Source: Myxococcaceae bacterium
Lineage (GTDB): Bacteria; Myxococcota; Myxococcia; Myxococcales; Myxococcaceae
Assembly (NCBI GenBank): GCA_022842905.1
Contig: JALHOS010000032.1
Location: 1 to 34,005, forward strand
DNA length: 34,005 nt
Direction: 5' to 3'
In this document: positions 4,824 through 33,016 of the stretch, in pieces
How the letters are laid out: each line of letters opens with the position of its first letter
Numbering within the stretch: position 1 is the stretch's first letter
Notes under the pieces: model-generated
What the model was told of the DNA's origin: nothing
Seen by the model: the letters and a program-made list of their open reading frames with translations, nothing else
The model's database searches: none
Program-made: the position numbers and the translations under genes

Positions 4824-4852
4824 TTGACGGGTGGCGTGTCCGCGCCGTAACC
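4824..4852 (+). promoter_or_regulatory. Weak candidate promoter for topA in the fusA-topA divergent gap
   Basis: TTGACG (4824-4829) is separated by 17 bases from GTAACC (4847-4852), a weak -35/-10 pair. If it is used, transcription would start about 5 bases before the topA ATG at 4864, giving a nearly leaderless message. That would agree with the lack of any Shine-Dalgarno sequence there. The -10 match is poor, so this is a suggestion only. I see no better element in the 106-base gap and no clear fusA promoter. Confidence 0.22.
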
Positions 4853-4863
4853 ACCCGCGCACC

Positions 4864-7671
4864 ATGGCAGCCAAGCCGCTCGTGATCGTCGAGTCCCCCG
4901 CGAAAGCGAAGACGATCGGACAATTCCTGGGGTCCACCTACCGCGTCATGGCCAGCGTCGGCCACGTGGTCGACCTGCCGTCGTCCGGCCTGTGCGTCGA
5001 CGTCGAGAACGACTTCAAGCTCACCTACGAGGTGACGAAGAAGGACGTGATCGCCGACCTCAAGGCGGCGCTCAAGGACGCGGGTGAGCTGTTCCTGGCC
5101 ACGGACGAAGACCGCGAAGGAGAAGCGATCGCCTGGCACCTCAAGGAGCAGCTGAAGCCCAAGGTGCCGGTCAAGCGCATGGTGTTCCACGAGATCACCA
5201 AGAAGGCGATCAGCGAGGCCGTCAACAACAGCCGCGACATCGACATGGGGCTGGTCGACGCCCAGGAAGCGCGGCGCACGCTCGACCGCTTGTACGGTTA
5301 CGAGGTCTCGCCGGTGCTCTGGCGCAAGGTGAAGGGCGGACTGTCCGCCGGGCGCGTGCAGTCGCCGGCGATTCGCCTGATCGTCGCGCGGGAGCACGAG
5401 CGCATGCGCTTCCGCGCGGCGTCCTACTGGGATCTGATCGCCCAGCACCCGACCGCGCCGCAGTTCGAGTCCACGCTCACCGCGGTCGACGGCAAGAAGG
5501 TGGCCACCGGCAAGGACTTCGATCAGTCCGGCAAGCCGCAGAGCGACGCGCGCTGGCTGGGCGAAGCCGACGCCCAAGGCCTGGTCCAGCGGCTGGCTGG
5601 CGCCGCCTTCACGGTGCGCTCGCTCGAGCCGCGGCCCTACCGCAGCTCTCCCAAGCCGCCGTTCATGACGTCGACGCTCCAGCAAGAAGGTGGGCGCAAG
5701 CTGAACATGAGCGCGCAGCAGGTCATGCGCGTGGCCCAGGGGCTCTACGAGCGCGGCTACATCACCTACATGCGTACGGACAGCACCAGCCTGTCCGAGA
5801 CGGCGATCAGCGCCGCGCGCACGCAGGTCAAGGAGCTGTACGGGGCCTCGTATCTCCCCGAGGCGCCGCGGCAGTACCAGCGCAAGGTGAAGAACGCGCA
5901 GGAAGCGCACGAGGCGATCCGCCCGGCCGGCGAGGCGTTCCGCACGCCCGACGAGCTCGTCGGTGAGCTCAACCCCACCGAGCTCAAGCTCTACGATCTG
6001 ATCTGGAAGCGCACGCTGGCCTGCCAAATGGAAGACGCCACCGGCGAGACCGTCAGCGTCAAGCTCGACGCGACCACGAGCTCAGGCGAGCGGTGTGAGT
6101 TCTCCGCGTCCGGCCGGACGATCTCCTTCCAGGGCTACCTGCGCGCCTACGTCGAAGGCTCGGACGACGAAGCGGCGACCAAGGACGACCAAGAAGCGCC
6201 GCTGCCGGTGCTCGCGCAAGGGGACTCGGTGCCCTGCGGTCAGGTCGAAGCCAAGGGCCACACCACCTCACCCCCGGCGCGCTTCACCGAAGCCTCGCTC
6301 GTCAAGAAGCTCGAAGAGCTCGGCATCGGCCGGCCGTCGACCTACGCGAGCATCATGGGCACGCTCCAGGCGAAGTACGTCTGGAAGCGGGGCAGCGCGC
6401 TGATTCCCAACTGGGAAGCGTTCGCCGTCGTCGCGCTCATGGAGAAGCACTTCGAGGGCCTGGTGGACTACGCGTTCACCGCCGAGATGGAAGAGGACCT
6501 CGACGCGATCGCCGGCGGCGAGCGGGACAAGGTGCCCTTCCTCAAGGAGTTCTACTTCGGCGACAAGCGGCACACGGGCCTGTCCAAGCTCGTCACCCAG
6601 AACATCGAGAAGATCGACGCGGCGGCGATCAACACGATCCCCATCGGCAAGGACCAGGACGGCGCCGACATCATCGCCAAGCCGGGCAAGTACGGGCCGT
6701 ACCTGAAGCGCGGCGAAGACACGGTGTCGATCCCCGAGACCCTCGCGCCCGACGAGCTGACCGTGGAGAAGGCGCTGCAGCTGCTCGCCGCGCCCAAGGG
6801 CGACACGCCGATCGGCGTGGACCCCGTGACGAAGCTGCCGGTGTTCGTCAAGCAGGGCCGCTTCGGCCCGTACGTGCAGCTCGGCGAGATGAGCGACGAG
6901 CAGAAGCCGAAGACGGCCTCGCTGTTCCGCAGCATGAAGCCCGAAGCCGTGACGCTCGAGCAGGCGCTCCAGCTGCTCACGCTGCCCCGCACCGTGGGCA
7001 CTGCCGCCGACGGGGAGACGATCGTCGCGCAGAACGGCCGGTACGGCCCCTACATCACCAAGGGGAAGGACAGCCGGAACCTGGGCATCGAGAACGAAGA
7101 GAAGCTGCTGACGCTGACCGTCGCCGAAGCCGAAGCGATCTTCCTGACGCCCAAGCAGTTCCGTGGCCGCGGGGCGCCCAAGCCGCCGCTGGCGACGTTC
7201 GGGAAGGACCCGGTCAGCGGCAAGGAGCTGATCCTGAAGGAAGGGCGCTTCGGCTACTACGTCACCGACGGCGAGACGAACGCGTCGCTGCGCAAGGGTG
7301 ACGATCCCAGCACGCTCAACACCGAGCGCGCAGTGGAGCTCATGGCGCAGCGCCGCGAGTACATGGCCTCGCCCGAAGGGCAAGCGAAGGCCGCCGCGCG
7401 CGGTGCGAAGAAGCCCAAGGCGCGGTTCACCAAGGCCAAGGCCAAGGCGGCGGACGGCGGGAACGGCGCCGTCGTGGAGAAGGCCGCGAAGCCGGCGAAG
7501 GGACCCAAGGCGCCCAAGGCCACGAAAGACGTCATCGCCAGCAAGCCGCCGAAGGAAGCCAAGACCTCCAAGGCCGCGCCGAAGGCCAAGAGCGGCAACG
7601 GCGCCAAGCCCGCGGCCAAGGCGAAGAAGCCGGCGAAGAAGGGCGCCGGCGAGAGCAAGAGAGCCCGGTAA
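4864..7671 (+). CDS. topA: DNA topoisomerase I (type IA)
   Basis: This 935-residue enzyme relaxes negative supercoils by cutting one strand through a 5'-phosphotyrosine. The ATG at 4864 gives [18 protein letters not shown], the canonical TOPRIM start (catalytic Glu10), and DEDREGEA supplies the metal-binding Asp81/Asp83. The active-site Tyr is about residue 302 in YITYMRTDS. The C-terminal third lacks the C4 zinc fingers of E. coli TopA. It carries instead at least four GRFGPY-type repeats ([36 protein letters not shown]; about residues 600-830), the Topo_C repeat type known from actinobacterial TopA. The last roughly 95 residues are Lys/Ala/Pro-rich with KAPKA and KAKK clusters, a histone-H1-like DNA-binding tail. 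The stop shares one base with the start of the Nudix gene (TAATG), so the two are probably co-translated. Confidence 0.97.
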
Positions 7672-8399
7672 TGCCTCGCACGGTCAGCGCCGACGAGCAG
7701 GCGTTCTTGGCGCAGTACAAGCCGACGAGCTACCCGCGCGCCTCGCTCACCGTCGACCTGGTGATCTTCACCATCATCGACGCGCAGCTGCGGATCCTGC
7801 TGGTGCGGCGCAAGGAACACCCGTTCAAAGGCGACTGGGCGCTGCCCGGCGGCTTCGTGCGCGTCGGCGAGACGGCCAAGGACCAAGGCGAAGACGTCGA
7901 CGCGGCGGCGCGGCGAGAGCTGCACGAGGAGACGGGGCTGGAGCCGGACCGCGTCTTCCTGGAGCAGCTCTACACGTTCGGGCGCGCTGGCCGCGATCCG
8001 CGCATGCGCGTGGTGACCGTCGCGTACTACGCGCTGGTGCGGCCGGACCTGGCGCCCTTCGTCCGCGCCGGCGGTGACGTCAGCGACGTGGACTGGATCG
8101 CCGTCGAGTCGCTCGGCAAGCAGCACCTCGCGTTCGATCACAAGGAGATCATCGACACGGCGCTGGCCCGCATCCGCGGGAAGCTCGAGTACAGCGATCT
8201 CGCGTTCGATCTCGTCCCCGCCACGTTCACGATCCCCGAGCTGCGGCACGTCTTCGCGATCGTCCTCGATCGCCCCATGGACCCGGGCAACTTCCGGCGG
8301 CGCTTCAACGGGCTGGTCGATGCCGGCGTCATCGAGCGGGCGCCCGGCAAGCGCATCACCGCGTCGAAGCCGGCGGCGGTGTTTCGCTTCAAGCGCTGA
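7671..8399 (+). CDS. NrtR-like protein: Nudix domain plus C-terminal winged helix
   Basis: This 242-residue protein begins with a Nudix fold (about residues 20-150). The Nudix box is recognisable as GGFVRVGE and then RELHEETGL. About 14 residues lie between the two halves where the classic box has 7, an insertion (around DQGED) that also occurs in some NrtR/ADP-ribose-type relatives. The C-terminal part (about 170-242: FTIPELRHVF, FRRRFNGLVDAGVIE) matches the winged-helix domain of NrtR-type regulators. Those sense ADP-ribose or related metabolites and repress NAD genes. The catalytic Glu residues of REL-x-EE are retained, so hydrolysis of ADP-ribose or another nucleoside diphosphate derivative remains possible. 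The start overlaps the topA stop by one base. A NadM-like protein two genes downstream fits an NAD-related role, but no operator was identified. Confidence 0.85.
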   Translation: MPRTVSADEQAFLAQYKPTSYPRASLTVDLVIFTIIDAQLRILLVRRKEHPFKGDWALPGGFVRVGETAKDQGEDVDAAARRELHEETGLEPDRVFLEQLYTFGRAGRDPRMRVVTVAYYALVRPDLAPFVRAGGDVSDVDWIAVESLGKQHLAFDHKEIIDTALARIRGKLEYSDLAFDLVPATFTIPELRHVFAIVLDRPMDPGNFRRRFNGLVDAGVIERAPGKRITASKPAAVFRFKR

Positions 8400-8466
8400 A
8401 GGTCGTGCCTTTGGCGGTGCAGCAGAACAGAGCGCCGCGACGTACGGCCTGCTACACGCGCCGACC

Positions 8467-9165
8467 GTGCGCTCTTCGTCCCGCCTCGAGCTCGTCGTCG
8501 CCGCGGTGTTGCTGGTGTTCGCGGCCTGCAAGAAAGATCCGCCGCCCCCCGCGACGGACGCCGAGCGCGACGCTGCGTTCTGGGCGTGGACTGCAGCGAA
8601 CCTGGACGAGCTGCGCGCGGTGAAGACGGGCAGCGAGCCGGTGGCGTCGGCGCTGGCCGAGCAGCTGGAGCGAGTGGACAAGCGGCTGGCCTTCGAGCTG
8701 GGGGTGGGGAAGGACGCGTTCGAATTCATCATCAGCGCCGACGGGAACCCCGCCGCGTTTGGGGTGGTCAAGCGCCTGGTCGCCGCGGCGCCGCCGCTCA
8801 AGGGCGTCAAGGTGATCGCGTTTCGCCCGCGCAAGGGGCCCGGGTTTCAGCTCGACGTCGCCGGGACCAAGGTGGGCTTCGACGACGTGCTGTTCACCGT
8901 CGAAGCCGATCCGTCCAGGCCGTCGCTCGTCGCGGTCACGCTGTACTTGAAGCAGCTCGACGACACGAACCGCCAGGCCTTCTTGAACGCGGCCTTCATT
9001 CTGCTCGAGCTGGCGCTCGGCGAATACGACGTGGCGACGAAGGTGGGGCAGCTCGAGCTCAAGGCGCTGCCGGAAGGTGACGCGACGCTCAAGGCCCTGT
9101 CCGAGCTGCCCGCGGTGGTGGACGGGTGGCAAGCGCCGGACGCCGGGAAGGTGGCGACACCGTGA
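8467..9165 (+). CDS. Putative lipoprotein of unknown function
   Basis: This 232-residue protein starts at GTG 8467. Its N-terminus has basic residues, a hydrophobic run (LVVAAVLLVF) and a lipobox-like FAAC with Cys21, so it is probably exported and lipid-anchored. The mature part, about 210 residues, begins with a Pro/Asp linker, then helices (FWAWTAANLDELRAV; LAFELGV) and an alpha/beta region with FEFIISADGN and LKGVKVIAFRPRKG. This resembles a widespread small family of unknown function that I recall from Bacteroidetes and myxobacteria, but I cannot name it with certainty. No catalytic motif is evident. Its TGA overlaps the GTG of the next gene (GTGA, 9162-9165), so it is coupled to the NadM-like/methyltransferase fusion. 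A gap of 67 bases separates it from the Nudix gene; nothing clear was seen there. Confidence 0.75.
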   Translation: MRSSSRLELVVAAVLLVFAACKKDPPPPATDAERDAAFWAWTAANLDELRAVKTGSEPVASALAEQLERVDKRLAFELGVGKDAFEFIISADGNPAAFGVVKRLVAAAPPLKGVKVIAFRPRKGPGFQLDVAGTKVGFDDVLFTVEADPSRPSLVAVTLYLKQLDDTNRQAFLNAAFILLELALGEYDVATKVGQLELKALPEGDATLKALSELPAVVDGWQAPDAGKVATP

Positions 9166-10547
9166 GCTACGCGCTGGTCCTGGGCCGCTTCCACGCGGTC
9201 ACCAAGGCGCAGTCGGAGTGGCTCGAGTCGCTGGGGCGCAGCCCGGTGGAGCGGATCGTCTGCGTGTTGACGAGCGCGGATCACAGCGGCACCCGGCGCA
9301 ACCCGCTCGATGCCGCGACCCGCGAGGCCATGCTCAAGCCGGCGCTGGCGCGGTCCACGAAGCCCTTCGACGTGGTCCACGTGCCCGACGTGCCGGAGAG
9401 CGACGCCTGGGTGGCCCACGTGGTGGCGACGGTGAAGGCGAAGACGGGGCTCGGGTTGACGCCGTCCAACACCACGGTGGCCTCGGCCAACCGCGACGTC
9501 GACGCGCTCTTCGCGCAGGCGGGCTTCGCCGTCGAAGCGCCGGCGGTGCACGGGCTGACGCCGCACGAATTGGTGCAGCGCATCGCCGACGGGAAGGCCT
9601 GGCAGGACGACGCGTCGGCGGAGACGAAGGAGGTCTTCAGCCGGCCGGGCATGGCGGATCGGCTCCGGGCGATCTTCGGCCAACGGCTGCTCAACGACGA
9701 CGGCGAGCTGGGGCACGCGCGCGACTTCGGCAGCTACGGCGCGCAGATGGACGCGAGCCTGCGGCAGAAGCTCGAAGATCTGGTCCGCTGGGTGAAGCCC
9801 GGTTGCATCGTCGACAAGGGCTGCGGCACCGGGAAGTTGTTGGTCGAGCTGTCCCGGCTCTTTCCGCAGTCGAAGCTGGTGGGGGTCGACCTGTCCCGCG
9901 AGTTCCTGCGGCTGTGCGACGAGAACACCTACGCGACGGACGACGTGGCGCTCGTGTTCGGCGACGTAGTCGACGTGTGCGTACCCGAAGCTTCGGCGAG
10001 CACGGTGATCTTCTCGTCAGTCATGCACGAGGTGCACAGCTACAACGGCTACGCGCTGGGCAAGATCGACGCCGCGCTGGCGAACGCGTGGACGGAGCTG
10101 GCTCCCGGTGGGCACGTGCTGATTCGCGACGGCGTGTCGCCCGAGCCGGCGACGTGGCGGCTGAAGTTCCTGTCCGCCGACGTGCAGGCCACCTTCGAAC
10201 GCTTCGCCCGGGAGTTTCGGCACGGGCAGGGCGCGCCCTTCGAGCGGCTGAGCGACGACACGGTGCGGCTGCCCGCGCACTACGCCAACGAGTTCCTCTG
10301 CAAGAAGGACTACCAGAAGAACTGGCACATCGAGGTGCACGAGGAGTTCGGCCCGCTGACGCTGAACGGCTGGAAGGACGCGCTGGGGCGCGCCGGGTTC
10401 GAACCCATGCACCTGCTCCAGTACGTCAACTCGTGGATCGCCAAGCACCGCTACGAAGGCACCGTCGAGCTGAGCCTGGACGACGGGACCCGGCTGGGCT
10501 GGCCGGCGACCAACTGTGTGGTGGTGGGGCGCAAGCCTCGGCGGTGA
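9162..10547 (+). CDS. Fusion of degenerate NadM-like nucleotidyltransferase and SAM-dependent methyltransferase
   Basis: This protein has 461 residues. The N-terminal domain (about 1-150) follows the NadM-type NMN adenylyltransferase plan. GRFHAVTKAQ (8-17) sits where NadM has GRFQPxHxGH; SADHSGTRRNPLDAATRE (about 38-55) matches the NadM SAxxSHTxxNPFTAGER segment; and DALFAQAGFAVEAP is followed by HELVQRIADGKAW in place of SGTxIRxxMLxGxxW. Both nucleotide-handling motifs are therefore substituted (HxGH is TKAQ, and GTxIR is lost), and adenylyltransfer may be absent. The C-terminal domain (about 200-461) is a class I methyltransferase: motif I VDKGCGTGK (about 217-225), an acidic loop VGVDLS, then VMHEVHSY and LAPGGHVLIRDG. 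The start is a GTG overlapping the lipoprotein stop. The NrtR-like neighbour suggests a pyridine-nucleotide-related substrate; this is inference. Confidence 0.85.
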   Translation: MSYALVLGRFHAVTKAQSEWLESLGRSPVERIVCVLTSADHSGTRRNPLDAATREAMLKPALARSTKPFDVVHVPDVPESDAWVAHVVATVKAKTGLGLTPSNTTVASANRDVDALFAQAGFAVEAPAVHGLTPHELVQRIADGKAWQDDASAETKEVFSRPGMADRLRAIFGQRLLNDDGELGHARDFGSYGAQMDASLRQKLEDLVRWVKPGCIVDKGCGTGKLLVELSRLFPQSKLVGVDLSREFLRLCDENTYATDDVALVFGDVVDVCVPEASASTVIFSSVMHEVHSYNGYALGKIDAALANAWTELAPGGHVLIRDGVSPEPATWRLKFLSADVQATFERFAREFRHGQGAPFERLSDDTVRLPAHYANEFLCKKDYQKNWHIEVHEEFGPLTLNGWKDALGRAGFEPMHLLQYVNSWIAKHRYEGTVELSLDDGTRLGWPATNCVVVGRKPRR

Positions 10548-17605: not shown

Positions 17606-20600
17606 TCACACCGCCTTCAGCACCCGGCGCAGAAATACATCCGTCTGCCGCTCGAGCACCGCGTTCGCGCCCAGCCGCTGCGCGAGGTGCTCGAAGTCCA
17701 CCTCATCCAGCGCCTGATCCTGATTGAAACAACTGAACACGAACGACTCCTTCCCCGTCCGTGGATCCACGTGCCGCTGCAGGCACTGCGCGCAGATCTC
17801 CTTCATCATGCACTGCATCGGCGAGTTGATGCTCCCGACCGCGCAGTGTGCCGGCTTCAACTCACCCTTCAGCACGCCGTGCCGCGCCTCCTTCACCGCG
17901 CGCATCATTCGGTCCGACCCAATGGCGATGATCCGATCCACGTCCCGCATCGGCACCGGTTGCGTGCCCAGGCTCCCCTCGGCGTACGCGACCATCGCCT
18001 GCACGATGTTCCCGACGATCGATCGGTCCTGCGGACGCCGCGGCGCCGGAGGCACGCCCGCATCCACACTCCACACGACCGCGTCTGCCGACTTCTCGAC
18101 CTCCTCAATCATGTACAGGTCTTCCGCGCGTCGGTAGCCAGCGAAGTACAACACCCGGCTCCCCGCAGCCCGCAGCGCCTGCCCAATCGAGAACAGCACC
18201 GCGTTCCCCAGCCCGCCGCCGGCGAGCAGCACCGTCTCTCCGCGCGGGATCTCCGTCGGAGCCCCCGTCGGCCCCATCAACACCACCGGCTCGCCTTCCT
18301 TCAGCCGCGCACACAGCCGCGAAGACCCGCCCATCTCCAGCACGATCGTCGACACCAGCCCCTGCGCTCGGTCCACCCACGCGCCGGTCAACGCCAGCCC
18401 CTCCATCACCAGCTTGGTGCCCGCGATCACCTCCGCGGTCCGCTCGTAGTTCTGCAGCCGAAAGAACTGCCCGGGCGCGAAGTGCTCCGCCGCGGCCGGT
18501 GCGTGCAGCACGATCTCCACGATCGTCGGCGTCAGCCGGTTCACCGCCCGCACCGTCGCCAGGAACGCCGCGTCGAGCCGGCCGAACAGCGCCGCGCGCT
18601 TGGCCTCGCGCTCGGCCCGCCCCGCGTCGTCCAACCCGCGCAGCTCACCCTCGAACAGCCGCACCACCTCCCCGAACCCGTCCCGCGCCGACGCCATGGC
18701 CTTCACCACGTTGCCCGCGTACGTCGGGTGGTTGTCCCCGTAGAACGTGACGTAGCGGCCTCCCTGCGCGTAGCTCGTGAAGAACCCAGCGCTCCGCCCC
18801 AGATCGTCGTGCCCCTCCACCGGCGTCAGCTCGAACCCACCCGCCGCGCCAGCGACGAGCGCGTGGGCGCGGAAGAAAGCCCCGTCGTCGTCCAGCGCGA
18901 ACGTGCCCGGGTACTCCTTCTCGTACGTGACGTTCGGCGACGTCCCCGCCGCCAGGCACACGGTCCGCGCGGGCAGGGTCAGCCGCTCGCCGCTGCTGAC
19001 CAACTTCCCGCCGTCGACCCGCATGCGCTCGAACACCAGGCCCTCCACGGCCCCGTTCGGGTCGACCACCGTCTCCACCGGGCTCACGCGCTCCACGAAG
19101 CGCAGGCCTTCCTCGAACGCCTTCTCCACCTCCTCCGCGTTGAGCCGGTAGGCGGGGGACTCGGTCAACCCGCGGCGGTAGCAGACCGACACGCCGCCCC
19201 ACTGCCGCACCAGCCGGCTGAGGTTCGGCGCTTCTCCCGCGGCCGCCGCCCGCGCACGCTCCGCGCGCACCGCCCGCCCGTGCTCGAGGAACGTCGCATA
19301 CGTCGCCCGCTGGTCGTCGCGCAGGCTCGTCAGCACCTCACCCTCCGCGCCGTTCGCCTGCAGCGCCTCGTGCCGCGCGAGCACCTTCTCGACCTGCACC
19401 GGGTAGTACGCGAGCAGCTCCGTCGCCGTGTCGATCGCCGTCAACCCGCCGCCGATCACCACCGCCGGCAGGTGCACCTCCAGGTTCGACAGCGAGTCCC
19501 GCTTGAACGCGCCCGACAGCTGCAGCCCCATGAGGAAGTCGGACGCCGCGCGCACGCCGCGCACCAGGTTGTGCTTCATGCGCGGGAGCGTCGGCTTGCC
19601 CGCCCCAGCCGCGATCGCCACGTGGTCGAAGCCCAGCCGCCACGCGTCGTCGAGGGTGATCGTCCCGCCGAAGCGCACGCCGCCGTACGCGCGGAAGCCC
19701 TGCCGCCGCAGCAGCGTCAGGTGCAGGAGCGTCAAGAACGACTTGTCCCAGCGCACGGTGATGCCGTACTCGGACACGCCGCCGAAGCCTTCGAGCACTC
19801 GCTCGTCCAGCCGCCCCGCCACCCGCGCCCAGTCGCGGATCGGCTCCATGCCCGGTCCGACCAGCGCTGCATCGAACGGCTCCAGCTTGAGCCCGTCGAC
19901 GGCGACCACGGTGAAGCCTTCGTTCAGCAGGTAGTGGCTCAGCGTGTAGCCGGCCGGCCCCAGGCCCACGACCAGCACGTTCTTCCCGTTCGCCGGCAGC
20001 GCCACCGGCCGCTTCGCGTTGAGCGGGTTCCAGCGCGTCAGCAGCCCGTACACCTCGAAGCCGTATGGCAGCGCCAGCACGTCGGTCAGCACGCTGGTCT
20101 CGATCTGCGGAATGTTCACCGGCGTCTGCTTCTGGAAGATGCAGCTGCGCATGCAGTCGTTGCAGATCCGGTGGCCCGTGCCCGGGCACATCGGGTTCGA
20201 CTCCATGATCATCGCCAGCGCGCCCACCGAATCACCCAGCGCCTTGAGCTGGTGCATCTCGCTGATTCGCTCGTCCAGCGGGCAGCCGGTGAGCGGCACG
20301 CCCAGCGGGTTGGGCTTGTACGTGTGCGCGGCCTGCGGCTGCTTGTCCTTGAAGCCGTGCCGGCAGCTGTCCTTCTCGCGCTCGTGGCACAGCACGCAGG
20401 TGTCCAGCTCACTGGCGATCTGTCGCGGCGTGGCCCGCGGGTCCGTCAGGCCGAAGCCGTCGCGCCGCCGCTGGGCGTGCGCCGGCCCCTCCACCGCCTC
20501 CGGGAGCGCCGGGTCCGGCCGCTCGAGCTCCACCAGCGCGTCGAACTTGAGCGGCTTGGGCTGGCGGATCGTCCAGAAGCCGTCGAACGAATGTGTGTAG

Positions 20601-21280
20601 CTCGCGCGGGCCCAGGTCCAGCGATCGACGATCGCCAAGAGCGCGCGGAGCCGATCCAGCGGCTCGCCCGTCAGCGCCGCTCCCAGCACCGTGCGCGCGT
20701 CGGCGTCGTGCTCGAGCGCGGCCAGCGCCTTCGCGGCGGCGTCGACGGCGGTGAGGTCCTTTGGTTCGGCACCCGCCGCGGCTCGCTCGGCCCGCATCAA
20801 CGTCGTCACCGCCAGCGCCAGCGCCCGCTCGAAGTCGCCCGTCGACTCCTGGGCGCCGAAGCCGACGCGGAGGAGCGCCGCCACCCGCGCGTCCAGCCCC
20901 GGCAGCTCTTCGCGCGTCGGCCGGTCCACCGCGCCCTTCTTGAAGACGCGGCGGCTGACGAAGTCCCGCTTGAATTCGAATAGCTCGAGCTCCGATCGGA
21001 ACGCCTGCGCTTGCGCTTCACGTTCGGCGGTGATGCCAAACAGCTCGAGGACGAAGCGCGAGAACGCTTGCGCGACGGAGATGAGGAGCGCCGACTCCAC
21101 CGTGGGCGCCAGCCCGCCGTGGGCGACACCCGCGCCGAGCTGCTGCCGGTACGAGCGGTACGCCGGGCCGATCGTCGGGTGCTGACGGTCCAGCGCGGCG
21201 AGGAACGTGGCGTCCAGCCGGGCGAGGGCGGTGGGGTCGTACAGATCGCGAAACGAGAAACCTTCGACTCCGAGCTGCAT
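17606..21280 (-). CDS. Fused flavoprotein oxidoreductase: helical domain, GltD/NfnB-like domain, PyrK/NfnA-like FNR domain
   Basis: This 1224-residue protein has three parts. Residues 1 to about 280 are mainly helical with no recognised family. About 290-900 is a GltD/NfnB/SudA-like flavoprotein. It has Cys clusters CVLCHEREKDSC (about 293-304), GCPLDERI and CPGTGHRICNDCMRSC that could hold iron-sulfur clusters, then a dinucleotide fold VVGLGPAG (about 435) and a second one IGGGLTAIDTA (about 605). About 930-1224 is a ferredoxin-NADP reductase/PyrK/NfnA-like domain with AGGGLGNAV (about 1018) and CMMKEICAQC...SC (about 1160-1185), a PyrK-type [2Fe-2S] pattern. NfnAB-type enzymes bifurcate electrons between NADH, NADPH and ferredoxin. 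Here both halves are in one chain, so electron transfer among pyridine nucleotides is inferred. The ATG at 21280 is chosen; a GTG at 21319 is possible. It lies 42 bases after the upstream lipoprotein gene. Confidence 0.85.
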   Translation of the reverse strand: MQLGVEGFSFRDLYDPTALARLDATFLAALDRQHPTIGPAYRSYRQQLGAGVAHGGLAPTVESALLISVAQAFSRFVLELFGITAEREAQAQAFRSELELFEFKRDFVSRRVFKKGAVDRPTREELPGLDARVAALLRVGFGAQESTGDFERALALAVTTLMRAERAAAGAEPKDLTAVDAAAKALAALEHDADARTVLGAALTGEPLDRLRALLAIVDRWTWARASYTHSFDGFWTIRQPKPLKFDALVELERPDPALPEAVEGPAHAQRRRDGFGLTDPRATPRQIASELDTCVLCHEREKDSCRHGFKDKQPQAAHTYKPNPLGVPLTGCPLDERISEMHQLKALGDSVGALAMIMESNPMCPGTGHRICNDCMRSCIFQKQTPVNIPQIETSVLTDVLALPYGFEVYGLLTRWNPLNAKRPVALPANGKNVLVVGLGPAGYTLSHYLLNEGFTVVAVDGLKLEPFDAALVGPGMEPIRDWARVAGRLDERVLEGFGGVSEYGITVRWDKSFLTLLHLTLLRRQGFRAYGGVRFGGTITLDDAWRLGFDHVAIAAGAGKPTLPRMKHNLVRGVRAASDFLMGLQLSGAFKRDSLSNLEVHLPAVVIGGGLTAIDTATELLAYYPVQVEKVLARHEALQANGAEGEVLTSLRDDQRATYATFLEHGRAVRAERARAAAAGEAPNLSRLVRQWGGVSVCYRRGLTESPAYRLNAEEVEKAFEEGLRFVERVSPVETVVDPNGAVEGLVFERMRVDGGKLVSSGERLTLPARTVCLAAGTSPNVTYEKEYPGTFALDDDGAFFRAHALVAGAAGGFELTPVEGHDDLGRSAGFFTSYAQGGRYVTFYGDNHPTYAGNVVKAMASARDGFGEVVRLFEGELRGLDDAGRAEREAKRAALFGRLDAAFLATVRAVNRLTPTIVEIVLHAPAAAEHFAPGQFFRLQNYERTAEVIAGTKLVMEGLALTGAWVDRAQGLVSTIVLEMGGSSRLCARLKEGEPVVLMGPTGAPTEIPRGETVLLAGGGLGNAVLFSIGQALRAAGSRVLYFAGYRRAEDLYMIEEVEKSADAVVWSVDAGVPPAPRRPQDRSIVGNIVQAMVAYAEGSLGTQPVPMRDVDRIIAIGSDRMMRAVKEARHGVLKGELKPAHCAVGSINSPMQCMMKEICAQCLQRHVDPRTGKESFVFSCFNQDQALDEVDFEHLAQRLGANAVLERQTDVFLRRVLKAV

Positions 21281-21322
21281 GGCGCGAGCAGGCTTAACTC
21301 GGAGGGCGCGGCGCCGCACGCC

Positions 21323-23887
21323 TCACGGACGGCTTCGCAGGTCGTCCTGGGGCAGCACCAGCTCCGACGACGGCTCGGCCAGGCACCCGCGGCGCTCGTC
21401 GCTGGTGAAGAGATCGCTCAGCACCCGCAGGCTGTCCGTCGCCAGGCCTTCCCCCCAGGCCACGGTGATGGGGTTGATGATGTTGAGGTAGCAGGGCGAC
21501 ACCGGCGCATCGACCGCCTTGCCCTCGTCTCGCCACCAGTAGAACAGCGCGCGCACCGTCCACAGGTAGGTGAAGGAGTACGAGGTCGGGTTGGGGCGCC
21601 ACCCCGAGATGCGGCTGCGCGGCACCCGGTAGAAGCGCTCTCGCTCGTTGACCACCAAGCGCGCGGCGTCCAGCGCGCCCCGCGCGTCGCTCAAGCGCGC
21701 CCGCCGCTGGGCGGTGGTGACGTTGGGGTCGAGCCAGCCGTCGACGTAGTCGTACAGGCCGTGAACCTGGCGCGCCCGCAGCGCCGTCATCTTCGCCGCG
21801 TCGGCGAGCTCGTCGAACAGCGCTCGGGCCGGGCCGCTCAACCGGCCGCGCAACATCTCCGCGCGGGCCGACAGCGCCCCGAACGTCGTCTTCATCTCGC
21901 GCAGCAAGGGCTCGATCTCCGCCGAGTAGCCGGGGCCGCCGTGAAGTGGGTTGCGCATGTCCACCAGGCCGAGCCGCGCCGGCTGCGTCATCTGCGCGGG
22001 GCCCAGGCGCGCCGCTGCGGCGCGCTCGCTGATGTCGTCCCAGGTCTCGAAGCCCTGCAGGTACGCCTGCCCCGAGCGCCGGGTGATGTCGTTGGGCCGC
22101 ACGCCGTTGATGCGACCTTCGATGAGGAGCGCCTGCTCCGCGGCCACCGTGTCCACGAGCCATTGCTCGACGGTGAGCGCTTCAGCGCCGAAGACCTGCG
22201 TGACGGGGCGCAGCGCCAGGCGGAGCGCCTGAGTGTGGTCGCGAACGCTGACGAAGGGCTCGTACGCAGAGCGCGCGGCGACGACGTCGTTGAGCCAGTA
22301 GCCCCACTCCCAGCCGCTCGAGAAGATGAGCTGGCCGTCCATGCGCTGGCCCGCGGTGGCGCCGCTGCCCGTCAGGCCCGACTCTTCGTCTTGGGCGATG
22401 AGCCGCAGATCGTACAGGCGCCGCTCGGCGTAGATCGGCAGGAACAGCGGCACGTCCACGTCGAAGCTGACCCAGTAGGCGGTCTCCGGGTACCAGACGA
22501 CGGGCCGCCGGCCGACCTGCTGGCGGAGGAACTTGCGAATGAAGTCGAAGTCGGAGTTCCCGTAGGTCGGCGCGAGATCCGTCAGGCCGTAGTGCTGGAC
22601 GGTGTGGGGCAGCACACCCAGGCGCGGGTCGGCGAAGTGGGGGAGGAAGTTGAAGTTGATCGGCGCCCCGGTGACGGGGTCTGGGAAGCCCGCCGCGGTC
22701 TGCCCGCTCGACGCGTGGACCTTGATGAAGACGTGCTTGCCGTACGTCGTCTCGACGTGGCGGGTCAGCTCGTTCATCCACTCGAGCATGCGCTGCGGCT
22801 CCGGCGCGGTGAACTCGCTGGTGCCCGCCTCGGTGCCGACGAAGTCGAAGCCGGCGGTCATCACCAGGTCCATGCGGGTGCGCAGCTCCGCCAGCTCCTG
22901 GGCGAGGGTGCCGCGCGTGCGCACGAGCCGGAACGCGTGCTGCTGGCCGAAGGCGATCGGCACGTCGATGCCTACCGCGAGGCCGAAGTCGTGCCCCTTG
23001 TCGACGAGCCGGGCCAGCCGCTGGAAGCGCGCGGGGCTGTCGGCGAAGGTGGCCCAGGCCTGCGCCCAGAGGAGGAACCACTCGACGCCGTTCTGCCGGT
23101 TGGCGACGAGCCACTCGCAGTAGGCCTCCCACTCGGGCAGCTGCGCGTCGAAGCCGGTGGCGTCGGTGGGGCCGGCGGGGCCCCAGCCCTGGAGCAGCTC
23201 GGTCAGCTCGAGCGGGTGTTGGGTGTGGAGGTGCAGCTCGCGCTTCTTCCAACGCGGACGGGCCGTCTCGTCGAGCGTCAGCGGCGGCGGGCGCAGCGCG
23301 AGGGGACGGAAGGGCTGCAGCGGGTGGAGGAAGCCGAAGCCGAGCGCCTCGAGCGCGCCGTAGACGGCCATGGACAGGCCGAGGTTCGTCGTCGCGCCGG
23401 CCCGCTGCGGTGTCCCGTCGGCCGCGAGGAGGACGCCGGCGCCCCAGGCGCGCGCCTTGAGGCGGATCGCCTCGTCCCCGGCCGTCTGCGCGCTCAAGCG
23501 AGGGAAGACCTCCCGCGTCAGGGCGGTGTCACCCAGGGCGAGGAAGAGGCTGCTCGTGTCGGCCGCGTCGACGAGCTCGGCGGGCGGAATCTCCGTCGGG
23601 GCGCGACCGAGCACGGCGCTCAGGTGCCGCAACACCCGGGCGCGCACGGCGGGGGCGACGTCGGCGCCGAAGCTGACCGCGAAGCCCGCAAGCCGCTGCC
23701 GTGGCGGGCCCGCGTCCAGGGTGCCCGTGGAGCCAGCGTCTTCGCCGTTGCCGCCGTCAGGGGTGACCCCGCCCGCATCTGCCGGCAAGCCCCCAGCGTC
23801 GAGCGGAGGCTGCTCGACGATCTCCGGGCCGCCGCACTGGCAGCCGGTCAGCATCGTCAGCATGAGCAGCAGGACCCGGGCGCGCAT
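21323..23887 (-). CDS. Large lipoprotein with GH67/alpha-glucuronidase-like architecture
   Basis: This 854-residue protein starts at ATG 23887. It has a signal sequence and a lipobox LTGC (Cys16), then a low-complexity spacer rich in Asp, Ala, Gly and Pro (about 20-60). The N-terminal domain (about 70-210) ends in a string like MAVYGALEALGFGFLHP. This resembles the alpha/beta domain preceding the catalytic barrel in alpha-glucuronidases and related glycoside hydrolases. A probable TIM barrel follows (WKKRELHLHTQHP, WLVANRQNGVEWFLLWA, DFVGTEAGTSEF), with many Trp and Tyr residues and candidate carboxylates, and then a helical C-terminus with YDYVDGWLDP. The acceptor and catalytic pair cannot be fixed by eye. 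It is likely cell-envelope attached and acts on a polysaccharide, or is a non-catalytic relative. It is transcribed with the oxidoreductase downstream; the functional link is unclear. Confidence 0.65.
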   Translation of the reverse strand: MRARVLLLMLTMLTGCQCGGPEIVEQPPLDAGGLPADAGGVTPDGGNGEDAGSTGTLDAGPPRQRLAGFAVSFGADVAPAVRARVLRHLSAVLGRAPTEIPPAELVDAADTSSLFLALGDTALTREVFPRLSAQTAGDEAIRLKARAWGAGVLLAADGTPQRAGATTNLGLSMAVYGALEALGFGFLHPLQPFRPLALRPPPLTLDETARPRWKKRELHLHTQHPLELTELLQGWGPAGPTDATGFDAQLPEWEAYCEWLVANRQNGVEWFLLWAQAWATFADSPARFQRLARLVDKGHDFGLAVGIDVPIAFGQQHAFRLVRTRGTLAQELAELRTRMDLVMTAGFDFVGTEAGTSEFTAPEPQRMLEWMNELTRHVETTYGKHVFIKVHASSGQTAAGFPDPVTGAPINFNFLPHFADPRLGVLPHTVQHYGLTDLAPTYGNSDFDFIRKFLRQQVGRRPVVWYPETAYWVSFDVDVPLFLPIYAERRLYDLRLIAQDEESGLTGSGATAGQRMDGQLIFSSGWEWGYWLNDVVAARSAYEPFVSVRDHTQALRLALRPVTQVFGAEALTVEQWLVDTVAAEQALLIEGRINGVRPNDITRRSGQAYLQGFETWDDISERAAAARLGPAQMTQPARLGLVDMRNPLHGGPGYSAEIEPLLREMKTTFGALSARAEMLRGRLSGPARALFDELADAAKMTALRARQVHGLYDYVDGWLDPNVTTAQRRARLSDARGALDAARLVVNERERFYRVPRSRISGWRPNPTSYSFTYLWTVRALFYWWRDEGKAVDAPVSPCYLNIINPITVAWGEGLATDSLRVLSDLFTSDERRGCLAEPSSELVLPQDDLRSRP

Positions 23888-23964
23888 GACCGCCGCAGGG
23901 TGACGACCGGCGCCAGGGCGGTCAAGGCACGTCAAGCCGGCCGTGCTCGAGTCGCCGCCGCGCC

Positions 23965-23981
23965 TCAAGGCAATGACTTGA
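23965..23981. promoter_or_regulatory. Inverted repeat TCAAG-N7-CTTGA in divergent gap
   Basis: The 163-base gap 23888-24050 separates the divergent lipoprotein and DUF3298-like genes. It holds TCAAG (23965-23969) and CTTGA (23977-23981) as an inverted repeat, the size of a dimeric regulator site. GTCAAG also occurs twice, just upstream. Short stems arise by chance, so confidence is low. No convincing -35/-10 pair was found. Confidence 0.2.
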
Positions 23982-24050
23982 ATGCACCGCCAGCCCGGTG
24001 CGAGGGTTCGCATCCGTCGCACGCAGGACCCACGCCCCGCGAGGAACTCC

Positions 24051-25256
24051 ATGACTGGCCCCGTTCGCTCCAACACCAGCGCCCCTTCGCTCCGCCCCGT
24101 CGTGACGGACGCGCCCGCCTCGCCTGCCTCGGCTGGGGCCTCGCCGAGCGCGACGTCGGCCACTGGCGCGGCGCCGGCCAGCACCTTCACGCCCGCCGGG
24201 ACGACGTCGACCAGCCGGCCGCAGCTCAGCCCGGTGGGAACGCCGCTGACCGGCGCGCAGTCGCTGCTGAACCCCGGGCCGATCGTGCGCTTGTCGGCGG
24301 TGCTCGGGCCGTCCGAAGAAGGGCCGATCGGCGTGCCCGTGCCGCCCGGCTTCAAGGCAGTGCTCGCCGCCGACATCACCGACGATCTCCTCACGCTCCC
24401 CGGCGGGCAGCAGCCTGGCTTCTGGTGGAACGAGCAGACGTTGTCGCTTTCGAAGGGCGGGGGCGGCTCGGTGGAGCTGCTCCCCAAAGCGCAGGCGCGC
24501 TTCGATGCGACGCACGCCGCGTTCAAGGCGAAGGCCGCGGCCCTGGCCAAGGCGTCCCCAGACGATCCGACCGCCGGCCACTTCATCGCTTCGCGGCAGG
24601 TCGCGGGGCACGGCTCGGCCGGCGCGCTGGTGTCGCTGACGGTTTCGACGAGCCGTTACGACGGGGAAGGGGAGTCGAAGGACGCGGTGGAGCTGCAGAC
24701 GTTCGACACGCGCACGGGCCAGCGGGTGCAGCTCGACGCGCTGCTCAGCGCCGAGCAGTTCAAGGGCGTCGTCGACACCATCGAGAAGGAGCTGCCGCTG
24801 CTCAAGGTCGACGGCAACCCCGACTTCGGCTCGGCGGCGTTCGTGCCCCCGACGCGGGCGGCGCTCGAAGGGCTGGTCGCGCAGCACTTCGCGCTCGTCC
24901 CCAGGCGCGGGCGGCTCGAGCTCGACGTGACGCTGACGGCGAAGAACCTCGAGCTGGGCAGCGCCCGCTTCACCTTCCAGGGGCCGACCGACGCCGCGTT
25001 CCTCAAGGTGATCGGCGCCGACGTGGCGCCTCTGCCGCAGGCCTACCCGCTGCCGACGAAGAACACGACGGACACGCTGGACGCGCTGGCCAAGCGGCTG
25101 CGCGATCCCGAGCAGCTGCGGGAGAAGGCGCTCGAGGTGCTCAAGAGCGATCCTGCGACGACGACCATGACGATGCAGACCGCGGAGCTGGTGCTCGAAG
25201 CGCTCGGCCAGAAGCAGTCGGCGGCGGACGTGCTGCGCCGGGTGTTGAGCTCGTAA
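24051..25256 (+). CDS. Protein with DUF3298-like (RsiV/PdaC-type) region, unknown function
   Basis: This 401-residue protein starts at ATG 24051, with GAGG (24041-24044) well placed upstream. The first roughly 65 residues are Ser/Thr/Pro/Ala-rich, low-complexity and probably disordered. No signal peptide or lipobox is visible. The body has a segment LVSLTVSTSRYDGEGE and then VELQTFDTRTGQRVQLDALL. This matches the pattern in DUF3298 domains (RsiV, PdaC), where a Tyr-rich strand is followed by FDLxTGKxLxLxDLF. RsiV binds lysozyme and PdaC acts on peptidoglycan, but no catalytic residue set is clear here. A helical tail (ALAKRLRDPEQLREKALEVL, VLEALGQKQS) ends the protein. It converges on the membrane glycosyltransferase with a 6-base gap. 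Without a signal peptide its location is uncertain; secretion by an unusual route is possible. Confidence 0.75.
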   Translation: MTGPVRSNTSAPSLRPVVTDAPASPASAGASPSATSATGAAPASTFTPAGTTSTSRPQLSPVGTPLTGAQSLLNPGPIVRLSAVLGPSEEGPIGVPVPPGFKAVLAADITDDLLTLPGGQQPGFWWNEQTLSLSKGGGGSVELLPKAQARFDATHAAFKAKAAALAKASPDDPTAGHFIASRQVAGHGSAGALVSLTVSTSRYDGEGESKDAVELQTFDTRTGQRVQLDALLSAEQFKGVVDTIEKELPLLKVDGNPDFGSAAFVPPTRAALEGLVAQHFALVPRRGRLELDVTLTAKNLELGSARFTFQGPTDAAFLKVIGADVAPLPQAYPLPTKNTTDTLDALAKRLRDPEQLREKALEVLKSDPATTTMTMQTAELVLEALGQKQSAADVLRRVLSS

Positions 25257-26737: not shown

Positions 26738-27187
26738 ATGATCGACGGCGTCGTCGTCAGCCCCCGGCGCGTGATCCCCGACGAGCGCGGGAAGGTCCTG
26801 CACATGCTCAAGGCGACGGACCCGGAGTTCGAAGCCTTCGGCGAGGTGTACTTCTCGACCATCTACCCGGGCGTGGTGAAGGGCTGGCACCTCCACCGGC
26901 GCATGGTGATCCACTACGCCGTCCCCGTCGGCATGGTGAAGCTCGTGCTGTACGACGATCGCCCCGACTCCCCCACGCGGGGGCGGGTCGAAGAGCACTA
27001 CCTGGGTCAGGATCACCACTGCCTGGTGAAGGTCCCGGTGGGCGTCTGGAACGGCTTCATGGGCGTCGGCACCGAGCCCGCAGTCGTCTGTAACTGCGCG
27101 TCGATTCCCCACGATCCCGACGAGATCGAGCGCGCCGACCCGCATGGCCCGCTGGTCCCCTACCAGTGGGCGCGAAAGGACCGCTGA
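26738..27187 (+). CDS. Sugar 3,5-epimerase-like cupin (RfbC-related)
   Basis: This 149-residue protein is shorter than canonical RmlC (about 180). It shows the RmlC-type cupin core: GEVYFSTIYPGVVKGWHLH around residues 36-52, including the catalytic-type His of the GWHLH segment, then VKLVLYDDRPDSPTRG, and VPVGVWNGFMG near 105. Such proteins act on nucleotide-linked 4-keto-6-deoxysugars as 3- or 3,5-epimerases, or as relatives such as WxcM-like isomerases. The TGA at 27185-27187 is 4 bases before the methyltransferase gene, so the two are co-transcribed. Context with a CDP-glucose 4,6-dehydratase points to a CDP-4-keto-6-deoxyglucose substrate rather than dTDP. That is inference, because the complete dTDP-rhamnose operon next door has its own RfbC. 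Confidence 0.85.
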   Translation: MIDGVVVSPRRVIPDERGKVLHMLKATDPEFEAFGEVYFSTIYPGVVKGWHLHRRMVIHYAVPVGMVKLVLYDDRPDSPTRGRVEEHYLGQDHHCLVKVPVGVWNGFMGVGTEPAVVCNCASIPHDPDEIERADPHGPLVPYQWARKDR

Positions 27188-27191
27188 ACCC

Positions 27192-28445
27192 ATGGCCACC
27201 CCGCTGCCCAGCTGCCGCGTCTGCGGCCAAGACATGCCCCGGCCGAGCGTCGACCTGGGGCTCCTCCCACCCGTCAACACGCTGGCCAGCACGCGCCAGG
27301 CTGCGCTCTCCGTGCCGCGCTTCCCGCTCGCGGTGGCCGTGTGCCCCAACTGCACGCACGCGCAGCTGACCCACCGGCTCGACCCGAAGGACGTCTTCGA
27401 GGACTACGTCTACTTCTCGTCGGTGTCGGAGACCGTTGTCCGCTGGGGCAAACACCTGGCGCAGCGCTACCAACACGAGCTCGAGCTGTCGGCCGTCGAT
27501 CTGGTGGTGGAGCTGGCGAGCAACGACGGGTGCATTCTTTCGCCGTTCCAACCTCGCTCGAAGGTGCTCGGCGTGGAGCCGGCGCGGAACGTGGCCAAGG
27601 TCGCCAACGAGCGCGGCGTGCCCACGCTGCCCCGCTTCTTCGAGAAGAAGCTCGGCGCAGAGCTCGCGGGCGAATACGGCCAGGCGCGGCTGATCCTCGC
27701 GCGCAACGTGCTGGCCCACGTGCCGGACCTGTGGGGCTTCGTGCAGGGCGTGCGCGACTGGCTTGCGGACGACGGGATCTTCCACGTCGAGGTGCCGTAC
27801 GTGCGGCCCATGCTCGAGAAGCTCGAGTTCGACACCATCTACCATGAGCACCTCTCGTACTTTTCCGTGACCGCGTTGGACCGGCTGCTGCGCGCCGCGG
27901 GGCTCGTGCTGTGGGACGTCGAGGAGATTCCGTTGCACGGCGGCTCGCTGGTCGCCCGCGCGAAGAAGCGCGGTGCGCCGAAGCCGAGCGTCGCGCGTTA
28001 CCTCATCGAAGAGCGCTCCGACGGGCTGCTGGGCCAAGCGGCGTGGGACCACTTCGCGCACGGGGTCAGCCGGCTCCAGGCGGAGCTGCCGGCCTTCTTG
28101 GGCTCGCTGTCGAGCCAAGGCGCGCTCGCGGCGTACGGCGCGGCGGCCAAGGGCGTCATCCTCGCGAACACCTGCGGCCTGGGCCCGCTGCTGCCCTGGG
28201 TCGCGGACAAGTCGCCGCACAAGCAGGGCAAGTTTCTGCCGGGGCTGGGCACGCCGATCGTCTCGCCCGAGCGGGTGGACGACGAGCTGCCTACCCACCT
28301 CGTGGTCCTCGCGTGGAACTTCTTCGCGGAGATCCGCAAGCAGCTCCACGTGTACGAGAGCCAGGGCGGGCGCTTCGTGCTGCCGCTGCCGAAGCCGCAC
28401 GTCGTGGCGACGGAGTTGGTGCGGGTGCGAGGGAAGGCCGCATGA
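27192..28445 (+). CDS. Sugar C-methyltransferase, NovU/TylC3/TcaB9 family
   Basis: This 417-residue protein has the three-part plan of deoxysugar C-methyltransferases. An N-terminal zinc-binding module has Cys8-x2-Cys11 (CRVC) and CPNC (about 51-54). A SAM domain carries the family variant VELASNDGCIL (about 106) in place of GxGxG. A C-terminal Methyltransf_14-type domain contains GAAAKGVILANTCG and AWNFFAEI. YHEHLSYFS (about 217-225) supplies the Glu-His pair that acts as general base in TcaB9. Members add a methyl carbon to C3 (or C5) of nucleotide-linked keto-deoxysugars, giving branched sugars. ATG 27192 has AAAGGA upstream (about 27175-27180), inside the end of the previous gene. Its stop overlaps the dehydratase start (ATGA, 28442-28445). 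The position methylated here is not determinable. Confidence 0.9.
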   Translation: MATPLPSCRVCGQDMPRPSVDLGLLPPVNTLASTRQAALSVPRFPLAVAVCPNCTHAQLTHRLDPKDVFEDYVYFSSVSETVVRWGKHLAQRYQHELELSAVDLVVELASNDGCILSPFQPRSKVLGVEPARNVAKVANERGVPTLPRFFEKKLGAELAGEYGQARLILARNVLAHVPDLWGFVQGVRDWLADDGIFHVEVPYVRPMLEKLEFDTIYHEHLSYFSVTALDRLLRAAGLVLWDVEEIPLHGGSLVARAKKRGAPKPSVARYLIEERSDGLLGQAAWDHFAHGVSRLQAELPAFLGSLSSQGALAAYGAAAKGVILANTCGLGPLLPWVADKSPHKQGKFLPGLGTPIVSPERVDDELPTHLVVLAWNFFAEIRKQLHVYESQGGRFVLPLPKPHVVATELVRVRGKAA

Positions 28446-29560
28446 CGCTCACGCTCGAAGCGCTGGCCGACGTGTACGCCGGGCGGCGGGTGGTGGTGAC
28501 GGGGCACACCGGCTTCAAGGGCGGCTGGCTGACGTTGTGGCTCGAGCAGCTGGGCGCGCAGGTGTTTGGCCTCGCGCTCCCGGCGGATCCGAAGGCGCTC
28601 GCGGTGAGCTGCGGCATTTCCCCGAAGCTGGGGCAGCGCTTGGCCGACGTGCGCCACTTCGACGCGGTGCGCAGCGCGCTGGACGAAGCGCAGCCCGACG
28701 TCGTCTTCCACCTCGCCGCGCAGCCGCTGGTGCGCCGCAGCTACGTGGCGCCGCTCGAGACGCTGCAGACCAACGTGCTGGGGACCGCCAACGTGCTCGA
28801 GGCCGTGCGCCAGCGCGGGGCGCAGTGCGCCGTCGTCGTCGTCTCGTCGGACAAGTGCTACCAGAACCGCGAGACGGAGCTGGCGTACCGGGAAGACGAT
28901 CCGCTCGGCGGGCACGATCCGTACAGCATGAGCAAGGCGGGCACCGAGCTGGTCGTCTCGTCGTGGCGCAGCAGCTTCTTCCCCGTCGACGCGCTGCCCC
29001 ACCACCAGATCGCCGTGGCGTCTGCCCGCGCCGGGAACGTGATCGGCGGCGGTGACTGGGGCGTCGATCGGCTGCTGCCGGATCTCATCAGCTCACTGCG
29101 CCGCGGGCGGCCCGTCACGCTGCGCAACCCGCAGGCGGTGCGGCCCTGGCAACACGTGCTCGAACCGCTCGGAGGCTACCTGCTCCTCGGCGCGGCCCTG
29201 CTCGGCGCGGACGCCGCGGAGGCCTGCGACGCGTTCAACTTCGGGCCCAACGCCGACTCGACGGTGCCGGTGCAGCGGCTGGCGGAGCTGGCGGTGCGCG
29301 CGTGGGGCAGCGGCCAGGTGTTGGCGTTGGGGGAAGCGTCGGGGCCGCACGAGGCCGGGCTCTTGCGCCTGGCGTCGGATCGCGCCTTCGCCAAGCTGGG
29401 GTGGACGCCGCGCTGGAGCCTGACCGAGGCGGTGCAGCACACCGTCGCGTGGTACCGCGCGCAGGCCTCGGGCATGGGGCCGCATGAGCTGAGGGATCTC
29501 TGCGAAGCGCAGCTCAGCTCCTACGTGAGCGGCGATCGCCGGCGACGCGCGGCGGCCTGA
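28442..29560 (+). CDS. rfbG: CDP-glucose 4,6-dehydratase
   Basis: This 372-residue short-chain dehydrogenase/reductase converts CDP-glucose to CDP-4-keto-6-deoxyglucose with bound NAD. The N-terminal Rossmann motif is VTGHTGFKGGWL (about 19-30), a string typical of RfbG rather than RfbB. SSDKCYQN supplies the catalytic Ser/Asp/Lys region, and the Tyr-x3-Lys pair is DPYSMSKAG. ARAGNVIGGGDW and RPWQHVLEPLGGY also match RfbG. ATG 28442 overlaps the methyltransferase stop, making this the third gene of the group. The usual partner, glucose-1-phosphate cytidylyltransferase (RfbF), is not in the window and must lie elsewhere if the path operates. Together these genes suggest a C-methylated 6-deoxysugar. 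It converges on rfbC with a 15-base gap. Confidence 0.93.
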   Translation: MTLTLEALADVYAGRRVVVTGHTGFKGGWLTLWLEQLGAQVFGLALPADPKALAVSCGISPKLGQRLADVRHFDAVRSALDEAQPDVVFHLAAQPLVRRSYVAPLETLQTNVLGTANVLEAVRQRGAQCAVVVVSSDKCYQNRETELAYREDDPLGGHDPYSMSKAGTELVVSSWRSSFFPVDALPHHQIAVASARAGNVIGGGDWGVDRLLPDLISSLRRGRPVTLRNPQAVRPWQHVLEPLGGYLLLGAALLGADAAEACDAFNFGPNADSTVPVQRLAELAVRAWGSGQVLALGEASGPHEAGLLRLASDRAFAKLGWTPRWSLTEAVQHTVAWYRAQASGMGPHELRDLCEAQLSSYVSGDRRRRAAA

Positions 29561-29587
29561 GCAGGGCGGCCGTCTTCAGCGCTGCTC
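29559..29587. terminator. Possible bidirectional hairpin between rfbG and rfbC
   Basis: GAGCAG (29559-29564) and CTGCTC (29582-29587) form a 6-base stem around a 17-base loop. It spans the convergent gap and overlaps the end of both genes. There is no T-run on either side, so the call is weak. Confidence 0.25.
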
Positions 29588-30130: not shown

Positions 30131-30142
30131 GGTGCGAGCGCT

Positions 30143-31911: not shown

Positions 31912-31920
31912 GGCTTGGCC

Positions 31921-32937: not shown

Positions 32938-32948
32938 GACGCCGGGGC

Positions 32949-32976
32949 GACTAGGGCATGCCGTGGCGCAATTCAA
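32949..32976 (-). promoter_or_regulatory. Weak candidate promoter for the rfbBDAC operon
   Basis: On the minus strand, TTGAAT (32976-32971) is spaced 16 bases from CTAGTC (32954-32949), upstream of ATG 32937. Both hexamers are only partial sigma-70 matches, and the 5' leader would be very short. It lies in the 79-base divergent gap 32938-33016. Confidence 0.22.
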
Positions 32977-33016
32977 GACCGGCGCGCGGGCCGCTTTGGT
33001 ATTCACCGCGCCGCCC

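Follow-up and report, generated by a model that had tools for sequence, protein, structure and literature searches.

The question raised by this locus is what a protein may do that carries an NMN adenylyltransferase (NadM)-like domain with altered catalytic motifs in front of a SAM-dependent methyltransferase. The window, i.e. the whole stretch of DNA that was analysed, is 34,005 nucleotides long, and the fusion gene, here called NadMT, is listed with its neighbours and motifs in Table 1. The reading frame was open on the plus strand from 9126 to 10547, and since homologues begin with M-x-A-L-L-x-G-R-F-H, the GTG at 9162 was taken as the right start. The codon-position GC content (0.68/0.46/0.94) was typical of coding sequence in this DNA and, together with the homologue-matched start, ruled out a frameshift or a chance ORF. 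Identity over the full length was 60-71% in Myxococcaceae and about 51-52% in the homologue at locus L049. NadMT was confirmed as a real gene in a Myxococcaceae-type genome, and the observation made in the sequence-only reading holds.

Table 1. Features of the NadMT locus and copies of the candidate operator (positions in the window unless a locus is given)
Feature	Position	Strand	Remarks
topA, directly upstream of nrtR	4831..7671	+	synteny only
nrtR, Nudix and NrtR winged-helix regulator	7671..8399	+	NUDIX 1.7e-21, NrtR_WHD 3e-12
Small lipoprotein-like ORF between nrtR and NadMT	8404..9165	+	start uncertain; 4-bp overlap with NadMT start; found in only some relatives
NadMT, NadM-like/methyltransferase fusion gene	9162..10547	+	461 aa; GTG start, in agreement with homologues
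N-terminal NadM (NMN adenylyltransferase) fold domain	9162..9680	+	about aa 1-172/173; sequence profiles and AF2/Foldseek
GRFHAVTKAQ (residues 8-17)	9183..9212	+	= NadM GRxQPFHxGH; R9 = Mth R11, T14 = H16, Q17 = H19; G, R, F, H, T 17/17, Q 16/17
TRRNPLDAATR (aa 44-54)	9291..9323	+	= Mth S45-I46-R47-D48-P49...R55; R46 and R54 17/17
TPHELVQR in place of SGTEVRRR motif	9558..9581	+	V138 = Mth R136; V 16/17, L 1/17; E136 17/17
Junction LLNDDGELGHxRDFxSYGAQMDAS	9681..9776	+	best-conserved stretch of NadMT; partly low pLDDT
Class I SAM-dependent methyltransferase domain (about residues 190-460)	9777..10544	+	with C-terminal EFxCKKDY..NWH..E extension; Pfam, NCBIfam, Foldseek
Copies of AGAGTCTTGACGACTCT	L047:1085-1101; L114:272-288; L091:3111-3127		also in L090, L092, L110-L113

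The best NCBIfam matches of residues 4-172 were PRK01153 (E 1.7e-12) and TIGR01527 (E 6.6e-9), both well beyond chance and both well below the curated cut-offs (47 vs 127 bits and 35.5 vs 181 bits for two NadM models). When a family profile of 17 NadMT members was compared with the PDB, the Methanothermobacter (Mth) and Mj NMNATs were found at E 1.5e-14 to 5e-13, followed by methyltransferases at residues 206-327. The AF2 model (mean pLDDT 83.7, pTM 0.58) gave Mth NMNAT as the top Foldseek match (1ej2, target-normalised TM 0.85), and its second half matched class I methyltransferases. The check proposed earlier, a predicted structure of the N-domain compared with NadM, thus came out in favour of an NMNAT fold. 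Since NCBIfam, PDB-profile and AF2/Foldseek matches were obtained, the predicted folds of both halves are considered settled; the modelled placement of the domains relative to each other is unreliable because of the pTM of 0.58.

The methyltransferase half exceeded several Pfam cut-offs (Methyltransf_25, E 7e-11, 43 vs 27 bits) and kept SAM motif I, DKGCGTGK, in all aligned rows, so that the intact domain expected behind the N-domain was indeed present. Its acidic SAM-ribose residue is D243 (E in one sequence). The mean majority frequency in the NadMT alignment was 0.85 for the junction, 0.77 for the methyltransferase and 0.69 for the N-domain, and the junction is likely to be a lid or hinge.

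Residues of the N-domain were counted from a phmmer alignment to Mth NMNAT, tallied over 17 NadMT sequences down to 52% identity. As had been proposed, residues 8-17 aligned gap-free to the NadM motif, GRxQPFHxGH in the Mth and Mj proteins and in full GRMQPFHRGH in Mth NMNAT. Mth H16 was replaced by Thr in 17/17 sequences and H19 by Gln in 16 and Leu in one, the second His of HxGH being absent throughout; the site reads T-x-[A/S/G]-[Q/L] in the family. No homologue kept HxGH, although the TKAQ named in the sequence-only reading is not literally conserved, since its middle residues vary. Mth Q13 was His in all 17 (H11 of NadMT), and R136, the Arg of GTxIR, was Val in 16 and Leu in one, in keeping with the reported loss of that motif. 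The equivalents of Mth G10, R11, R47, P49, R55, D80, W87, N105 and E134 were retained in 17/17 sequences, and those of S39 and A40 in 16/17; W87, N105 and D80 of Mth NMNAT presumably have roles in NMN binding. Both segments said to remain, SAxxxxTRRNPL and the DALFAQAGFAVEAP region, were found. In the remote members at L086 and L087 (~30% identity) the motif was GRHHLLT and GRHHVFT, respectively. Because H11 and T14 are invariant, Q17 is nearly so and GRHHxxT recurs in these remote members, the HxGH site has given way to a pattern that is itself conserved, GR[FH]HxxT, and has not merely drifted or decayed.

Thr is allowed at the first HxGH position within the superfamily (T/HXGH, PMC1249556), and the importance attached earlier to the loss of the first His was therefore overstated. 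It is the second His that has been linked to ATP binding and catalysis (PMC1249556; PMC3509593). As Thr is permitted at the first position, it was the second His, together with the GTxIR Arg, whose loss was taken as diagnostic. The window's genome encodes a canonical NadD (HVGH...SSSEIRRR) elsewhere, so adenylylation is already covered without NadMT. With two motifs lost in all relatives and this NadD present, NadMT as an ordinary NadM was rejected.

The full fusion was detected in 22 of the 145 genomes of the order, and in a further 10 only the related methyltransferase was found, opening a frame of 740-820 aa. A full-length profile applied to a wider sample of the phylum added three carriers (G150, G161 and G162). 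With a profile of the N-domain only, 24 of 194 phylum genomes were positive and the methyltransferase was fused in 24/24, no unfused N-domain being found in the 194 genomes; the two parts of one copy (G090) lay on separate contigs, and the set did not include the genome of the window. Copies of the methyltransferase domain that lack the N-domain occur in jumbo phages and on Bacillus plasmids, and in other myxobacteria the domain is joined at its C-terminal side to an unrelated region.

Two jumbo phages, Atu_ph07 and Phosso, and a plasmid of Bacillus velezensis encode free-standing proteins related to the methyltransferase half (L056:5995-6759; L057:5971-6747; L055:5968-6792). A viral origin of NadMT was rejected, as IMG/VR yielded no relative of the fusion and phage matches cover the methyltransferase only; plasmid matches were likewise restricted to that half, which led us to reject plasmid carriage. 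PADLOC gave partial matches to methyltransferase models only (best mad2), and membership in a defence system was not accepted. The myxobacterial protein at L025:1453-3663 and its relatives at L023-L030 combine the related methyltransferase with a C-terminal region of ~420 aa. A Nudix identity of this region was discarded because its faint ADP-ribose pyrophosphatase-like stretch (E 0.09) was not significant. Fusions of NadM with Nudix are already known (PMC9503650); no description of a NadM-methyltransferase fusion was found in the literature searched, which covers part of the published work.

In the nrtR product upstream of NadMT both the Nudix and the NrtR winged-helix domains exceeded the cut-off. 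In 20 of the 22 Myxococcaceae genomes, nrtR was located within 3 kb upstream of NadMT and in the same orientation; it was 10 kb away in G091 and on another contig in G129. As topA is equally linked, preceding nrtR in most Myxococcaceae NadMT loci, the synteny of nrtR and NadMT may in part reflect inherited order alone; the array at L047, which lacks topA, speaks against this as the whole explanation. The next-closest NrtR relatives (57-62%) adjoin NaPRT and a nicotinamidase-like gene, and relatives without NadMT show the order pncB, nicotinamidase-like gene, nrtR. The NadMT homologues at L049, L088 and L087 do not adjoin NAD genes; their genomes do carry nrtR/VWA-type clusters. A different NAD linkage was found in G150, where the remote homologue L086:4100-5728 starts 15 bp past the stop of an ORF (L086:2315-4084) that matches both NadD and NAD kinase models. 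The NadD part of this ORF reads TAYH where HxGH would be expected, and for this reason it may also be altered.

Other genes of the window were recorded as well. The minus strand carries two large genes, of 1237 and 1087 aa, at 17606-24586, the first with a weak Pyr_redox_2/Fer4_20 match and the second with no Pfam match. The region 27144-33018 contains a plus-strand C-methyltransferase gene (27144-28445) and minus-strand dTDP-sugar-type genes (29576-33018; RmlC-, RmlD- and GDP-mannose 4,6-dehydratase-like).

The most complete NAD context was found at L047:1141-9374, where pncB, PP2C, kinase-like, nicotinamidase-like, VWA, nrtR and NadMT genes follow one another on a single strand, with topA outside the array. 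Its pncB encodes NaPRT (match to PDB NaPRT, E 5e-11). In the window's genome the genes from pncB to VWA (pncB-PP2C-kinase-nicotinamidase-like-VWA) lie apart from NadMT on contig C151 (L110:2599-8461). The NadMT genomes G161 and G162, which belong to another family, carry PP2C-kinase-nicotinamidase-like-VWA-nrtR, and in G162 this cluster adjoins NaPRT, PRPP synthetase and isochorismatase genes. Of 25 NadMT genomes, 21 contained the VWA orthologue, against 2 among 170 other genomes (Fisher p 4e-22, without correction for phylogeny). Scores against cut-offs were 34.8 vs 23.8 bits for VWA and 57.6 vs 24 bits for PP2C_2, and the kinase was sub-threshold (16.8 vs 31.7 bits). A nicotinamidase identity of the 329-aa gene was not adopted, as there was no Pfam or PDB sequence match; it is called nicotinamidase-like because its similarity to Pfam isochorismatase is at motif level only (hhalign E 3.7e-5).

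A TerY-P-like phospho-signalling triad was observed inside the nicotinate salvage operons L110:2599-8461 and L047:1141-9374. In genus g19 (G094:C111, G120:C12, G104:C1, G118:C1) another NrtR paralogue (~50%) lies 5-7 kb from another TerY-like VWA gene (~41%), which suggests that the pairing of NrtR with VWA is more general. Nicotinate salvage, NrtR and VWA/PP2C/kinase genes together form an uncharacterised set that suggests control of NAD homeostasis by phosphorylation in myxobacteria.

A palindrome, AGAGTCTTGACGACTCT, was located upstream of pncB in 9 of the 10 loci compared (L047, L090, L091, L092, L110-L114), either exactly or with up to 3 mismatches, and it overlaps the -35 box of a sigma-70-like pncB promoter; when 3 mismatches are allowed, 0.07 sites per 34 kb would be expected by chance in the window. 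It was absent from the window, including the vicinity of nrtR and NadMT. We regard it as a candidate NrtR operator for myxobacteria. The nrtR-NadMT linkage, the L047 array with this candidate operator and the adjacency of a remote homologue to the NadD-NAD kinase gene are new here.

We consider it probable, at roughly 0.6, that the N-domain binds pyridine nucleotides but does not adenylylate them, and that it either controls the methyltransferase or supplies it with substrate. The NadM pocket would no longer have the groups needed for gripping and activating the ATP phosphates, but keeps the equivalents of GR, the second arginine cluster, Trp87, Asn105 and Asp80. Its probable new role is to accommodate one of the pyridine nucleotides of nicotinate salvage (NaMN, NMN or NAD). 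Once the salvage enzymes have increased the level of NaMN or of a related nucleotide, this would enter the pocket, and the conserved junction may couple pocket occupancy to the SAM site. Binding would then control the methyltransferase or present a substrate to the SAM domain, and methylation would therefore track NAD-precursor status. NadMT may act in this way alongside NrtR and the VWA-PP2C-kinase triad on the nicotinate salvage operon. If true, one polypeptide links NAD-precursor status directly to SAM-dependent methylation, and the link was built by retiring the chemistry of a housekeeping enzyme while keeping its pocket. The NadM fold with lost catalytic motifs ahead of an intact SAM methyltransferase, as claimed in the sequence-only reading, stood in structure and motifs; its two suggested functions, ligand sensing and pyridine-nucleotide methylation, are proposals to which the neighbouring genes (NrtR, pncB, the nicotinamidase-like gene and NadD-NAD kinase) lend independent support.

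Taken strictly, the feeding variant of this reading would make the bound NaMN, NMN or NAD itself the substrate of the SAM domain, and the product would be a modified NAD metabolite or signal. The same NAD-gene context is consistent with such a pyridine-nucleotide methyltransferase, as are the retained pocket with its lost adenylylation chemistry and the resemblance of the methyltransferase half to the small-molecule enzymes NovO, TleD and CouO as well as to tRNA methyltransferases. However, the SAM domain probably has its own acceptor site, because it occurs elsewhere without the N-domain or with an unrelated partner, and the AF2 model yields no reliable pocket-to-pocket distance; we hold this alternative to be unlikely. 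Its extension, in which NadMT turns a pocket-held salvage intermediate into a novel methylated pyridine nucleotide (or NAD-derived signal) that serves as the output of an NAD-status circuit with NrtR and a phospho-switch, is speculative and rather doubtful.

The N-domain could also be a ligand-free scaffold for folding or dimerisation, with the methyltransferase serving an unrelated process and the NAD linkage being inherited order. The linkage of topA in most Myxococcaceae loci and the unlinked homologues at L049, L088 and L087 would fit, but the pocket residues are invariant against an N-domain average of ~0.69, the NAD linkage in L086 is a second and unrelated one, and the VWA/salvage/NrtR cluster is found in NadMT genomes of another family as well, which makes a mere scaffold quite improbable. 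Finally, NadMT might still be an adenylyltransferase, Thr14 and Gln17 forming a rewired active site in a bifunctional NMNAT/methyltransferase. The tolerance for Thr in T/HXGH would permit this, E. coli NadD H19A keeps 0.62% activity, so that a trace of activity in NadMT is conceivable, and archaeal NMNAT may work mainly by positioning (PMC1249556). Against it stand the canonical NadD in the genome and the absence of both the second His and the GTxIR Arg from 17/17 sequences, and we infer that the adenylyltransferase activity was lost; this last alternative is very unlikely.

When compared with known systems, the N-domain of NadMT shares with archaeal-type NadM (PRK01153/TIGR01527; 1ej2, 1f9a, 4yp5) the fold, ~23% identity over the whole domain and the GR, SA, R47/P49/R55, D80, W87, N105 and E134 equivalents. 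It differs in HxGH changed to T-x-x-Q, Gln13 to His and the GTxIR Arg to Val, in the fused methyltransferase and in scores far below the curated cut-offs; with two motifs lost and the curated score not reached, NadMT is by these measures not a NadM member despite its NadM fold. The NadM-Nudix enzyme (PRK05379; weak N-domain match, 5.6e-5) likewise carries another catalytic domain at the C-terminus of a NadM domain, whereas the partner in NadMT is a methyltransferase and the catalytic motifs are lost. The C-terminal part of the class I SAM methyltransferase NF005379/PRK06922 (677 aa) matches NadMT aa 192-455 (8e-25), but the first 398 model positions remain unmatched and the score is below the cut-off (87 vs 602 bits). 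TerY-P triads consist of VWA, PP2C and a Ser/Thr kinase (PMC11090510); the salvage-array triad likewise combines these domain types within an operon, but accompanies NAD salvage genes and not ter or restriction genes, and gave no match to the PADLOC TerY-P models. As in NrtR-regulated NAD salvage sets, genes for PRPP synthetase, pncB and nicotinamidase-type proteins are linked here to an NrtR-type regulator, with a candidate operator; the sets described here go further in adding the VWA-PP2C-kinase triad and the NadM-like/methyltransferase fusion.
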